Assembly (NCBI RefSeq): GCF_003148805.1
Contig: NZ_QGGX01000006.1
Coordinates: 186,001-250,000, forward strand
Length of the DNA: 64,000 nt
Direction: 5' to 3'
Source: Aminobacter sp. AP02
GTDB lineage: Bacteria > Pseudomonadota > Alphaproteobacteria > Rhizobiales > Rhizobiaceae
The position numbers were made by a program, and so were the translations under genes. Positions 4,015-59,614 of the stretch are shown here, piece by piece (the stretch's first letter is position 1; each line of letters starts with the position of its first letter). Under the pieces are notes generated by a model. It saw only the letters and a program-made list of their open reading frames with translations, was not told the DNA's origin and did not search any database.

Positions 4015-4043
4015 AAAGGCCCGGTGTTCAGCCGGGCCTTTTT
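4015..4043 (+). terminator. Rho-independent terminator after the SCP2 gene
   Basis: AAAGGCCCGG and CCGGGCCTTT pair across a short loop, followed by a T run. It lies 30 bases after the SCP2 stop codon. Confidence 0.85.
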
Positions 4044-4143
4044 GCATTGCACAATCCTACACGCCACGAGCGCCAGCGCGTAATGCAGCTGTAATCATTG
4101 GCGCACACAGCGCTCCGGTCACTGAATGCGACTGGAGTATCAT

Positions 4144-6565: not shown

Positions 6566-6720
6566 CGCGCGGTCCTGCCGCGCAGAATCATTATCAAGCT
6601 GCGGGACAGCCGTTCCCGGCCGCAGAATCCCGCGGTGGACAAAGACATGACCGCTATTTGATGGAACCAGCCTGTGGAGACCCTGGAACCATAAATGCGC
6701 TTCACGCGGCGGTGAACCTA
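6566..6720 (-). ncRNA. Structured leader upstream of ornithine decarboxylase (candidate speF-type element)
   Basis: The minus strand upstream of odc folds into consecutive hairpins: GCGGT/ACCGC (6632-6655), CTGCGG/CCGCAG (6599-6625) and GCGCGG/CCGCGC (6567-6583), the last ending 14 bases before the start codon. An alphaproteobacterial RNA element named speF is known upstream of ornithine decarboxylase genes. Position and structure fit, but I could not check the covariance model, so the assignment is tentative and the 5' limit is approximate. Confidence 0.5.
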
Positions 6721-7102
6721 AGCCAGCCCGGCTTCGGTTCGCTTTGTCTGCCTTGGCTTGGAAATGGGAGACCCGTTCCGCACTGCCGGCAATGAAGGTG
6801 TGCCTCTTCAGTAACCCCGGCTTTTGGACAGCCGGAAGAGAACCAGAAAGGCCCGCACCGTCGTTGCTTCAAGGTGTCCTCGATTTGGCGGTTGGCCGCT
6901 AAATCGACTGGAGGGGTTAGCTCCAGTTACCTTACCGATTTCCTCGCCATTCGAGGGATCGGCGGACACCCACAGGCACGTGCGACTTTGGGCAAGCGGG
7001 GATATATGCACCACTGATGTCACAATCAATTAAAATCGCATAGCAGGTTGAAAAAAATCAAACACTGAACAATGCTGCGACATCGTAAACAGGCTTCGAA
7101 CG
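6721..7102. other. Intergenic region between odc and the amidase gene
   Basis: About 380 bases that probably hold the two divergent promoters for odc and the amidase. AT content rises towards 7020-7080. Two opposing open frames of about 70 codons (6824-7033 plus, 6808-7029 minus) resemble no family and lack ribosome binding sites. A T-less hairpin GCCGG...CCGGC occurs near 6820-6835. No further feature is supported. Confidence 0.5.
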
Positions 7103-43318: not shown

Positions 43319-43379
43319 TGCGTTTCCCCTTGCGAGCAATCGATTTCCCCCGCCTGACCATGCGGTGGACGATTTCTGC

Positions 43380-43535
43380 CGGGCCGGTCTTCTGGCTCGA
43401 GTTCAACCCGCGTTCGGCGCCTTCCCGTTCAGGACGAACAGTGGCTTTTGCCGATACGGTCCCTCTTACAGCGTTGGGCACGCCACGGTTTTGCACCGTG
43501 TTCCCGATTCTCCCGCATCGCTGCGAGCACCTGGC
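43380..43535 (-). ncRNA. Cobalamin riboswitch in the bluB leader
   Basis: On the minus strand the conserved parts of the B12 element appear in order: a GGTGC start (near 43530), GGGAACACGGTG with the opposing CCGTGGCGTGCCC, then AGCCACTG (the GCCACTG box), AACGGGAAGGCG, and a closing GAGCCAGAAGACCGGCC. Order and spacing match the family, which binds adenosylcobalamin and blocks translation or transcription. It ends about 60 bases before the bluB start. Coordinates are approximate. Confidence 0.92.
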
Positions 43536-43616
43536 AGGAAATGTCTACAGGACGACAAAGCCCTTTGCTACGCCGCCGCGCGTCCAAAACTGACGCGCGA
43601 GCGACATTGCGGCCGC

Positions 43617-57133: not shown

Positions 57134-57907
57134 CTACCCCGCGAGAACTCTCAGCGCCGCCGCATGCAGTTCTGGCGTTGCCGCGGCGATGATGTCGCCG
57201 CCATTCTCGGCCGGAGCGCCATCGAAGGTGGTGACGATACCGCCGGCCTGCTCGATGATGGGAATCAGCGCGACGATGTCATAGGGCTTGAGGCCCGGAT
57301 CGACGACGATATCGACCTGGCCCGCGGCAACCATGGCGAAAGCGTAGCAGTCGGTGCCGTAGCGCGCGAGTTGCACCTTGCCTTCCAGATCATCGTAACG
57401 CATGCGCATCTCGCCTTTGAACAGTGCTGGCGTGGTGGTGAACATCGTTGCTTCGGAAAGTTTGGTCGTCTTGCGCACGGCAAGCTTGCGCGGCCCGCCC
57501 GGCCCCTCATAGTGCGAGCCCTTGCCGTCGGCGAAGAACAACTCACCAGTAAAGGGTTGTGACATCACCCCGGCCACCGCATCGCCGTCAACAGTGAGGC
57601 CAACCAGCGTGCCCCACACCGGTAAGCCGGAAATGAAGGCGCGAGTGCCGTCGATCGGATCGATGACCCAGACATGGCTGTTGGAGATGTTTTCGTTGCC
57701 ATGCTCTTCGCCGAGGATGCCGTGATCGGGAAATTCGGCATTGATCAGCGCACGAATGGCGCGCTCGGCCTCCTGGTCGGCTTCAGTGACCGGGTCGAAT
57801 CCACCAGCGAGCTTGTTTGCCACTGCGCCTTGCCGGCGGAAACGCGGCAACGTCTCGGCCGCTGCGGCACTTGCGATTCGTCGCATGAATTCGGCGTCGA
57901 TCATCAT
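57134..57907 (-). CDS. hisN: Histidinol-phosphatase of the inositol monophosphatase family
   Basis: 257 residues. Metal-binding motifs of the IMPase fold are present: LGEEHGNEN (Glu of the first site), WVIDPIDGTRAFISGLPVWG (Asp-x-Asp) and the later DCYAFAMVAAGQVDIVVDPG and PYDIVALIPIIEQAGG. The motif SGLPVWGT fits the HisN group that hydrolyses L-histidinol phosphate in many actinobacteria and rhizobia, which lack the HAD enzyme HisB-N. An inositol monophosphatase role (suhB-like) cannot be excluded by eye. Starts at 57907 (MMID) or 57904. The MmgR-type RNA gene follows on the other strand. Confidence 0.87.
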   Translation of the reverse strand: MMIDAEFMRRIASAAAAETLPRFRRQGAVANKLAGGFDPVTEADQEAERAIRALINAEFPDHGILGEEHGNENISNSHVWVIDPIDGTRAFISGLPVWGTLVGLTVDGDAVAGVMSQPFTGELFFADGKGSHYEGPGGPRKLAVRKTTKLSEATMFTTTPALFKGEMRMRYDDLEGKVQLARYGTDCYAFAMVAAGQVDIVVDPGLKPYDIVALIPIIEQAGGIVTTFDGAPAENGGDIIAAATPELHAAALRVLAG

Positions 57908-57998
57908 TCACCCCATGTCTGACTGTGGCCTGGATGACACGCAGCCACGCCTATAGGCAATAACTACATCACCATGATTTAAAAAGACCCAAGGCGCC

Positions 57999-58026
57999 TT
58001 GACTTTTGTGCAGCGCACAATAATCT
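57999..58026 (+). promoter_or_regulatory. Promoter of the MmgR-type small RNA with an inner palindrome
   Basis: TTGACT (57999-58004), a 16-base spacer and TAATCT (58021-58026) form a strong sigma-70 promoter. The spacer holds TTGTGCagcGCACAA (58006-58020), a perfect inverted repeat; CAAGGCGCCTTG overlaps the -35 (57990-58001). Either may be an operator. Confidence 0.65.
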
Positions 58027-58032
58027 CGACTT

Positions 58033-58111
58033 CGGACAGGTTCTCCTGTCCATGCCCTCCTTGGGCGTTTCCTCCCTAGACTTCGACCGCTCTCCGGAGC
58101 GGTCTTTTTTT
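58033..58111 (+). ncRNA. mmgR: Small regulatory RNA of the alpha-r8 / MmgR family
   Basis: About 79 bases. Hairpin 1: GGACAGG and CCTGTCC (58034-58051) with loop TTCT. Hairpin 2: GCCC/GGGC (58054-58066) with loop TCCTT. Then a single-stranded segment with UUUCCUCCCU (58068-58077), the ten-base core I recall as invariant in this family, then the terminator stem GACCGCTC/GAGCGGTC (58085-58104) and seven T. It lies between an inositol monophosphatase-family gene and an N-formylglutamate amidohydrolase gene, as I recall for S. meliloti mmgR (about 77 nt). MmgR limits polyhydroxybutyrate and responds to nitrogen. No coding frame fits. Confidence 0.85.
58085..58111 (+). terminator. Rho-independent terminator of the small RNA
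   Basis: GACCGCTC, loop TCCG, GAGCGGTC, then seven T. The convergent N-formylglutamate amidohydrolase gene ends just after it. Confidence 0.95.
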
Positions 58112-58131
58112 AGCCGTTTGCTAGCCTCTGA

Positions 58132-59022
58132 CTATTCCGCCGCCAGCGGCAGGTCGAGGAAATAATGGTCCGGAGCCGCCATGAGATCGGCGGAAAACCG
58201 GGCCAGATCGTCCGCCAGCGCATAAAAGCCCGCCGATTTCTTGAACGTGCGCTCGTCCATGTAGAGCCCGCGATTGATTTCGATCTGCAGCGCGTGAAGC
58301 CTGCGCGCCGGCCGGCCATAATGCTCGGTGATGAAACCGCCGGCATAAGGTTTATTGTGCGCCACGGTATAACCCATTGCCGCAAGCAGCCCGATCGCCC
58401 GCTCGGACAGAGCAGATGCAGCAGAAGTGCCGAAACGATCGCCAACGATGAAATCGGGCCTCACCCCACTGTCGCCGATGCGGATCGAAGCCGGCATCGA
58501 ATGGCAATCGACAAGCACCGCGTAGCCGAAACGCGCATGCGTGCGCGTGACAAGCCGCTTGAGCGCCTCGTGGTAGGGCTTGTAGACGCATTCGATGCGC
58601 CCGACGGCCTCTGCCAACGGCAGCCGGCTGGCGTAGATGTCGAGCCCCTCGCCCACCAGCTTCGGCACGGTGCCGAGCCCGCCGGCAACGCGCGCCGAAC
58701 GGATGTTGGCGAAAGGCGGAACCGGTTCGGCGAACATCCTGGGATCGAGTTCCCACGGCTCGCGGTTCACATCGAGATAGGCGCGTGGAAAATGCGCCGC
58801 CAGCATCGGCGCGCCAAGAGCAACCGCGGCACCGAACAGTTCATCGACATAACAATCTTCGGAGCGCCTGATCGAGGTGGCGTCGAGCCGGGTCATGGCC
58901 AGGAACCGGTCGGGATAGCAGCGCCCGCTATGGGGCGAATTGAACACGAACGGCACACGCTGCTCGGCGCTCGTCCGGACTTCGAACGGCGGCAGTACCG
59001 AGAAATCTTCGGCTGGCGTCAT
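58132..59022 (-). CDS. N-formylglutamate amidohydrolase
   Basis: 296 residues. The family motifs are FVFNSPHSGRCYPDRFLAM, DCYVDELFGAA, FPRAYLDVNREPWELDPRMF, VDCHSMPA and LQIEINRGLYMDE; the His/Asp/Glu residues there form the metal site. The enzyme releases formate from N-formylglutamate (last step of one histidine utilisation route), but other hut genes are absent, so the true substrate is open. ATG 59022 is used; the frame to 59139 is an Arg/Gln-rich extension. It is divergent from cpdR, as in related Rhizobiales. Confidence 0.88.
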   Translation of the reverse strand: MTPAEDFSVLPPFEVRTSAEQRVPFVFNSPHSGRCYPDRFLAMTRLDATSIRRSEDCYVDELFGAAVALGAPMLAAHFPRAYLDVNREPWELDPRMFAEPVPPFANIRSARVAGGLGTVPKLVGEGLDIYASRLPLAEAVGRIECVYKPYHEALKRLVTRTHARFGYAVLVDCHSMPASIRIGDSGVRPDFIVGDRFGTSAASALSERAIGLLAAMGYTVAHNKPYAGGFITEHYGRPARRLHALQIEINRGLYMDERTFKKSAGFYALADDLARFSADLMAAPDHYFLDLPLAAE

Positions 59023-59159
59023 CTTTGCTGATGGACCTGCGAAATGCACTTGCTCATCGCTCGAAAGTGCCACCTGCCGCCGCCTGTGTCCAGCATTTCG
59101 AACTGTGGAAAATCCGCTCTTACCGTGGCTTTGCCTCACTCTGCTGACACGGCATTCAC

Positions 59160-59199
59160 TTGATGTTTACCGTCCCGGACTCATATAGAAGATGGTTAA
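59160..59199 (+). promoter_or_regulatory. cpdR promoter with a CtrA-like half-site
   Basis: TTGATG (59160-59165), 17 bases, ATATAG (59183-59188). ATGGTTAA (59192-59199) is the reverse complement of TTAACCAT, the rhizobial CtrA half-site, and lies on the predicted transcription start. This would fit repression by CtrA. Confidence 0.5.
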
Positions 59200-59251
59200 C
59201 GAAGCCCCTGCTGGGGGGCGGCTTCGACCGCTGATTCGGACGGGATTACTG

Positions 59252-59614
59252 ATGGCACGCATTCTTCTGGCAGAAGACGACGACGATATGCGCCGCTTCC
59301 TGGTCAAGGCGCTTGAGCGCGCCGGATACCAGGTGAGCGACTTCGACAATGGCGCGAGCGCTTACGAGCGGCTGCGCGAAGAACCTTTCTCACTGCTTTT
59401 GACCGACATCGTGATGCCGGAAATGGACGGCATCGAATTGGCGCGCCGCGCCACCGAGATCGACCCCGATCTCAAGGTGATGTTCATCACAGGCTTTGCC
59501 GCAGTGGCGCTCAATCCTGATTCGAAGGCGCCGCGCGACGCAAAAGTGCTGTCGAAGCCCTTCCATCTGCGCGATCTCGTCAACGAGGTCGAAAAGATGC
59601 TGCACGCCGCATAG
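59252..59614 (+). CDS. cpdR: CpdR, single-domain response regulator
   Basis: 120 residues, only a receiver domain. The acidic pocket is EDDDD (residues 8-12), the phospho-acceptor D52 lies in LLLTDIVMPEMDG, Thr in MFITGFAAVAL, and Lys in VLSKPFHL. In alphaproteobacteria CpdR, when unphosphorylated, delivers CtrA and other substrates to ClpXP and so controls cell division and bacteroid development. The sequence matches CpdR closely. ATG 59252 is chosen; an upstream ATG at 59192 would add 20 residues without family support. Confidence 0.95.
   Translation: MARILLAEDDDDMRRFLVKALERAGYQVSDFDNGASAYERLREEPFSLLLTDIVMPEMDGIELARRATEIDPDLKVMFITGFAAVALNPDSKAPRDAKVLSKPFHLRDLVNEVEKMLHAA

Follow-up and report, generated by a model that had tools for sequence, protein, structure and literature searches.

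MmgR of S. meliloti (Sm8/SmelC689) and the SisA to SisD RNAs of Caulobacter crescentus are the described small RNAs (sRNAs) with which we compare a predicted sRNA gene at positions 58034-58111 of a 64,000-nucleotide stretch from Aminobacter sp. AP02 (contig NZ_QGGX01000006.1, positions 186,001 to 250,000). We call this stretch the window, and coordinates refer to it unless stated otherwise. MmgR is described as a 77-nt RNA with three stem-loops (PMC7143759). AniA/PhaR represses its gene, activation goes through NtrC, and when the conserved core was deleted, polyhydroxybutyrate (PHB) rose by 20% together with the level of phasin protein (PMC8401924). PhaR binds an mmgR promoter fragment in electrophoretic mobility shift assays, the shifts were abolished when the palindromes were removed or mutated, and titration of PhaR by PHB granules has been reported for S. 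meliloti (PMC12542648). The wider alpha-r8 family is described as having a 10-mer core, a terminator and a copy adjoining an N-formylglutamate amidohydrolase (FGase) gene. Four alpha-r8 RNAs with a common 10-mer occur in Caulobacter, where SisA represses mRNAs through this core and the sponge CrfA is a pairing partner of each of the four (PMC12559287). The Rfam model of the family, RF00519 (suhB/mmgR), is also listed for Mesorhizobium huakuii (PMC5596092).

RF00519 is the family model of both MmgR and the Aminobacter sRNA, for which a length of about 78 nt and three stem-loops are predicted. The two promoters have a PhaR dyad in common, assigned by sequence in Aminobacter, where it is perfect; the S. 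meliloti site reads TTGTGC-ACC-GCAGCA (PMC12542648). This dyad is a feature of the S. meliloti mmgR member and not of the alpha-r8 family as a whole. With SisA to SisD the Aminobacter RNA shares the core 10-mer and the terminator, and with sisA the FGase neighbour; however, four copies with no shared promoter motif are reported in Caulobacter (PMC12559287), whereas Aminobacter has one copy above the cut-off, preceded by a PhaR-type dyad. Overall, the gene very probably encodes the orthologue of MmgR and thus an anti-Shine-Dalgarno sRNA under the control of PhaR. It is a well-preserved, ordinary copy of the mmgR sRNA already known from related soil bacteria, and adds one more orthologue, with a clear PhaR-type promoter operator, to a well-described sRNA.

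An alpha-r8 sRNA gene in the window

Scanning with Rfam release 15 gave a plus-strand match to RF00519 at 58047-58119 (68.0 bits, E-value 6.7e-12, model positions 1-77), for which the cut-off, the gathering score, is 41 bits. A first-pass annotation made from the sequence had named an MmgR/alpha-r8-type sRNA here and had proposed a search of 57950-58130 with this model. That search gave the plus-strand match just described, which is full-length, and the core and the gene order agree with the proposed name. We consider the locus almost certainly an alpha-r8 (MmgR/suhB, RF00519) sRNA gene orthologous to S. meliloti mmgR. Its elements are as follows.

57999-58004, plus strand: -35 element TTGACT (from sequence; TTGAC conserved)
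58003-58023, unstranded: predicted PhaR (AniA) operator (best matrix match of the 64-kb window)
58021-58026, plus strand: -10 element TAATCT (weak by the E. coli consensus; TANNNT conserved)
58034-58111, plus strand: predicted mmgR/alpha-r8 sRNA, about 78 nt (RF00519 match; start inferred, +/- 3 nt)
58034-58051, plus strand: stem-loop SL1, GGACAGG UUCU CCUGUCC (predicted fold, covariation)
58052-58068, plus strand: stem-loop SL2, a small hairpin before the core (predicted fold)
58068-58077, plus strand: anti-Shine-Dalgarno core UUUCCUCCCU (TTTCCTCCCT) (from sequence)
58085-58111, plus strand: Rho-independent terminator, 8-bp stem and 7 T (terminator scan)

The start was placed from the -10 element and from the distance between the end of the PhaR site and the transcript start in S. 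meliloti, where the site ends at 3046699 and the transcript starts at 3046712-3046713. The RF00519 match extends from within the 3' arm of SL1 to 8 nt beyond the T tract, so its coordinates differ from those of the transcript. The model leaves out the 5' arm of SL1 (58034-58046), and database coordinates at this locus therefore begin some 13 nt after the inferred 5' end.

In the 5.6-Mb genome (72 contigs), RF00519 exceeded its cut-off at one place only, 150 of the 334 first-look candidates having been scored. Of the 199 genomes of the GTDB family, 163 contained a match at an E-value of 0.001 or below, and 148 a match above the cut-off. A weaker RF00519 match (30 bits) on contig C24 was considered as an mmgR paralogue and rejected, the locus being BjrC1505 (RF02356). 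This RNA, at L002:1429-1572, scores 79.1 bits with its own model, versus 30 with RF00519, and lies upstream of DUF1465-like and ruvC-like genes (named by eye). BjrC1505 likewise bears a CCUCCCU-containing stretch ahead of its terminator, but is a separate family.

Predicted fold and covariation

The 79 nt at 58033-58111 have a predicted folding energy of -39.1 kcal/mol, compared with -19.9 (s.d. 2.9) for shuffled sequences, none of which (0 of 200) was equally stable. The fold comprises SL1, SL2 and the terminator hairpin, and a terminator scan recovered the latter independently (one found, versus a shuffle mean of 0.2), with the stem-loop at 58085-58104 and the T tract at 58105-58111. All three hairpins read earlier from the sequence, two small ones and the terminator, are present in this fold. 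The ten-base core had been described as single-stranded; nine of its bases are unpaired, but the first U closes SL2.

Conservation was followed in two sets of loci. One consists of the 30 best-scoring RF00519 matches of the family search, our own included, which are not a random sample. The other, the named relatives, consists of 80 FGase-linked records, 79 of which entered the dyad and promoter counts; locus L107 (Mesorhizobium composti) was dropped because no core lies near its FGase gene. The 21 nt around the core were identical in 30 of 30 family-search loci and in 78 of the 80 FGase-linked loci. In the 30-locus alignment, the 19 base pairs were kept in 94% of cells, compared with 35-56% when partners were slid, and both-side changes were seen in 37 cells, compared with 11.9 +/- 2.8 after shuffling. 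SL1 was paired in 90.9% of cells and showed at least one both-side change in five of its seven pairs; we regard it as a part of the RNA that is under selection. The four inner pairs of SL2 are nearly invariant and hence uninformative on covariation, and two of the eight terminator pairs carried both-side changes.

A predicted PhaR-type operator fills the promoter spacer

The -35 and -10 elements are 16 nt apart, and this spacer is filled by the perfect dyad TTGTGC-AGC-GCACAA at 58006-58020, a feature absent from the earlier annotation. Using a PhaR matrix built from 10 S. meliloti sites given in PMC12542648, with the mmgR site held out, position 58003 ranked first in the window at 24.6 bits, and the next site, at 4037, scored 19.2. 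With the same matrix, the mmgR site of S. meliloti reaches 17.4 bits, less than the Aminobacter site. The runner-up at 4037-4057 overlaps the T tract of a terminator-like hairpin (by eye) after a 120-codon frame, and may be a chance occurrence.

The dyad is perfect in all 79 named relatives carrying the core. Of the 30 family-search loci, 16 have it in perfect form and 26 with at most two mismatches, a level reached by 30 of 3950 and 12 of 1500 shuffles. The promoter elements around it are similarly conserved: TTGAC precedes the core in 79 of 79 named relatives and in 29 of 30 family-search loci, and the pattern TTGA[ACT]N, 15-18 nt, TANNNT in 79 of 79 and 28 of 30 (shuffles, 66 of 3950 and 27 of 1500).

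Genome-wide, the dyad TTGTGCN3GCACAA is found in perfect form at four places, including the mmgR promoter and one phasin gene; with one mismatch allowed there are 17 places, versus 3 for the reversed pattern. Genes for PhaR, a class I polyhydroxyalkanoate (PHA) synthase, NtrC and Hfq, and three phasin-family genes, all score above their cut-offs. One phasin gene (L136/L116) has the perfect dyad upstream, a second (L117) is preceded by a tandem pair of imperfect sites (22.2 and 18.8 bits, with 4 and 3 mismatches), and the third (L118) has no PhaR-type site above 8.7 bits. We extended these observations to the 151 genomes matching one phasin query, taking the 30 best loci and calling the start in 26. 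A PhaR-type site lay within 160 nt upstream of the orthologous phasin in 19 of the 26 at two mismatches or fewer, and in all 26 at three or fewer; 7 of 1500 shuffles contained a site at the former level. Judged by their sites, the sRNA and two phasins of the Aminobacter genome appear to answer to a common regulator, as is the case in S. meliloti, and it is quite likely that PhaR controls mmgR here. Regulation through the PHB-granule sensor is predictable for the Aminobacter and Mesorhizobium records examined.

The two other perfect dyads, at L134:1501-1515 and L137:1501-1515 (contigs C4 and C9), are possible PhaR targets; the former lies between aldo/keto reductase-like and enoyl-CoA hydratase-like genes (by eye).

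The dyad and PhaR across the family

PhaR (TIGR01848) was matched in 174 of the 199 family genomes, leaving 25 without a match. Eleven of these 25 have an alpha-r8 match. Loci from four of them were read (G016, G072, G078, G158, G181, G189 and G191 being left out) and set beside 46 PhaR-positive loci, namely the 30 best-scoring ones and 16 picked, not at random, from the family list. A dyad with at most two mismatches was present in 41 of 46 PhaR-positive and 1 of 4 PhaR-negative loci (Fisher p 0.011), in a sample that is small, non-random and related by descent, relatedness that the Fisher p values ignore. The PhaR-negative genome that keeps the dyad, in perfect form, is G031; its assembly completeness is 96% and phaR is present in its congener G130, so the absence of phaR from G031 may be an assembly gap. 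Leaving this genome out gives 0 of 3 PhaR-negative loci with a dyad (p 0.003) and, at the level of genera, 30 of 34 versus 0 of 2 (p 0.024).

The three remaining loci (L196, L197 and L198, from G119, G096 and G170; two genera) have no dyad, and their genomes match neither PhaR nor the phasin query, which is one phasin protein, so that other phasins are possible. In all three, the -35 element (TTGACC) and the 10-mer core are retained, as is a hairpin resembling a terminator. More widely, loss of phaR may go hand in hand with loss of the operator and yet spare the RNA. No published account of such a joint loss was encountered or ruled out, in reading that included no search directed at this point.

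Proposed mechanism and phasin pairing

From sequence and conservation, a sigma-70-type promoter would drive an RNA of about 78 nt ending at its own terminator. The PHB-sensing repressor PhaR (AniA), bound to the dyad between the -35 and -10 elements, would block this promoter. PHB granules would titrate PhaR, and the sRNA would be made when PHB is made, alongside phasins with the same kind of site. Its exposed CU-rich core, probably on Hfq, would then pair with Shine-Dalgarno regions of several mRNAs and lower their translation, as shown for SisA in Caulobacter (PMC12559287); on this analogy, we hold anti-Shine-Dalgarno pairing by the core to be quite likely. One net effect would probably be a brake on phasins and PHB. 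For an effect of the sRNA on PHB, we put the chances somewhat above even. The first-pass annotation had invoked a link of MmgR between nitrogen and PHB storage. That link is documented for S. meliloti (PMC8401924, PMC7143759); a like connection in the Aminobacter genome is deduced from its PhaR-type site and its phaR, PHA synthase, ntrC, hfq and phasin genes.

The phasin start region reads AGGGUGAGACAAUG, and the start region of L117, GUCCACAGGGUGAGACAAUG, is predicted to pair with the core region at -15.1 kcal/mol, a value equalled by 5.9% of shuffled cores; with a shorter region, 1.4% were equally good. The L117 pairing site is unchanged in three genomes of the window's genus. For the phasin-family gene L118, pairing of the start region with the core was no better than with shuffled cores (53.5%). 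Four orthologous phasin loci paired well, three from the window's genus (our own included) plus L171. We do not claim phasin mRNA as a direct target, since pairing was good only in this genus and L171.

A complement of the 21-nt core region within 3 mismatches is absent elsewhere in the genome. The search thus gave no sign of a strong CrfA-like sponge, although a shorter or weaker one might escape it.

Alternative explanations

Several results weigh against our reading of the locus as a PhaR-gated MmgR orthologue. The number of base pairs with a both-side change, seven, did not exceed that in shuffles (5.2; 58 of 500) or in all slid versions (3-10), and was the one of the five covariation measures to fall within the shuffle range. 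An E. coli-type sigma-70 scan found no promoter, TAATCT agreeing at 3 of 6 positions of the -10 consensus; the promoter that had been thought readable is upheld by its conserved -35/-10 pattern (79 of 79 and 28 of 30 loci), but not by that scan. The start region of phasin L116, which has the perfect dyad, showed no pairing with the core (99% of shuffled cores were equally good), and only 4 of 26 orthologous phasin loci paired at 0.05 or better (mean fraction 0.34). Five PhaR-positive genomes lack a good dyad (loci L010, L027, L029, L030 and L206), so control by PhaR is not universal. Finally, the alpha-r8 RNA is kept in genomes with no match to PhaR or to the one phasin query, which makes PHB unlikely to be its only job.

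These points can be set beside three other accounts of the locus. That it belongs to another anti-Shine-Dalgarno family, such as AbcR/alpha-r15 or BjrC1505, and merely resembles alpha-r8, is suggested by the second locus of this genome with a weak suhB score, which turned out to be BjrC1505. However, the stretch at 58034-58111 scores 68.0 bits with RF00519, and a lax Rfam scan of 57900-58200 returned three other families, each far under its own cut-off (SorY 24.7 bits versus 111 and anti-hemB 22.5 versus 49.5 among them), with BjrC1505 absent among the matches at an E-value of 0.1 or below; such scans list only the best member of a clan, and weaker clan mates of RF00519 (CL00108) would stay hidden. 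The gene order and the promoter dyad also suit mmgR, and we regard membership of another family as extremely unlikely. A somewhat less remote, though still improbable, account is that a regulator other than PhaR, such as NtrC or some further repressor, recognizes the dyad. S. meliloti mmgR does answer to NtrC too (PMC8401924, PMC7143759), but the Aminobacter dyad outscores the S. meliloti mmgR site with the PhaR matrix, resembles sites found in the promoters of two phasin genes of its own genome, and is missing from three of the four loci from genomes without a PhaR match.

The third account leaves PhaR in place and concerns what the RNA does: it would act here mainly outside PHB metabolism, as a broad SisA-like anti-Shine-Dalgarno repressor of transport and carbon-uptake genes, and PhaR would only time its expression. 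The sequence AGGGAGGAA, the perfect complement of nine core bases, lies 4-11 nt before an ATG at 15 places in the genome, versus 2 for the reversed pattern, and at 7 and 6 places, versus 0 and 0, in two congeners. Thirteen of the 15 sites stand ahead of a reading frame longer than 100 codons. About six of these genes look like periplasmic solute-binding proteins, and others are panB-like, acyl-CoA dehydrogenase-like and dihydropyrimidinase/urease-alpha-like, all named by eye, which counts against this account. For one TctC-like gene, the site is identical across the three genomes of the genus compared, our own included, and the persistence of the sRNA in some genomes without PhaR or phasin-query matches points the same way. 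Yet AGGGAGGAA is a strong Shine-Dalgarno sequence, which gives the same signal without any sRNA and is left in by the reversed-pattern control, and because of this we do not take the excess as evidence of regulation. We give this account slightly less than an even chance. More tentatively, alpha-r8 could be an older general anti-Shine-Dalgarno regulator whose PHB role is an optional layer added through the PhaR operator in the spacer, in which case genera that lost PhaR, along with the phasin, would have shed the operator and kept the core, the pattern seen in G119, G096 and G170.

Genomic neighbourhood

The genes around mmgR are as follows.

57134-57907, minus strand: hisN, histidinol-phosphatase (inositol-monophosphatase family), divergent from mmgR (TIGR02067, 318.5 bits, cut-off 275.15)
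58132-59064, minus strand: gene of the FGase family with an uncertain start codon, convergent with mmgR (PF05013, 255.5 bits)
59192-59614, plus strand: cpdR (NF046022, 209 bits, cut-off 180, residues 21-140 matched)

The order hisN, FGase gene, cpdR, as first read from the open reading frames, is borne out by these matches; a tRNA-Val follows. The FGase-family gene scored below the HutG equivalog cut-off (115.7 versus 278.75), and the true start of cpdR is probably an internal ATG at 59252. S. meliloti mmgR, too, presumably has a suhB/hisN-like neighbour.

The FGase gene is 92-95% identical in six Aminobacter records and 80-91% identical in the other 74, which are mostly titled Mesorhizobium. 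Relatives of hisN and cpdR are present at all 80 FGase-linked loci, and the core, within one mismatch, at 79, the exception being L107. RF00519 scored above its cut-off in 10 of the 11 named loci submitted to Rfam; at the L107 locus, Rfam found a tRNA and no RF00519 match. There, the FGase gene, hisN, cpdR and the tRNA are all present, and hisN follows about 100 bases after the FGase gene with no sRNA between them.

Other RNA elements in the window

On the minus strand, an ar45 sRNA match (RF02347, 163.5 bits) is followed 9 nt downstream by a speF leader (RF00518, 100.5 bits), the two occupying 6847-6993 and 6688-6837. A cobalamin riboswitch (118 bits) is found at 43365-43549, also on the minus strand.
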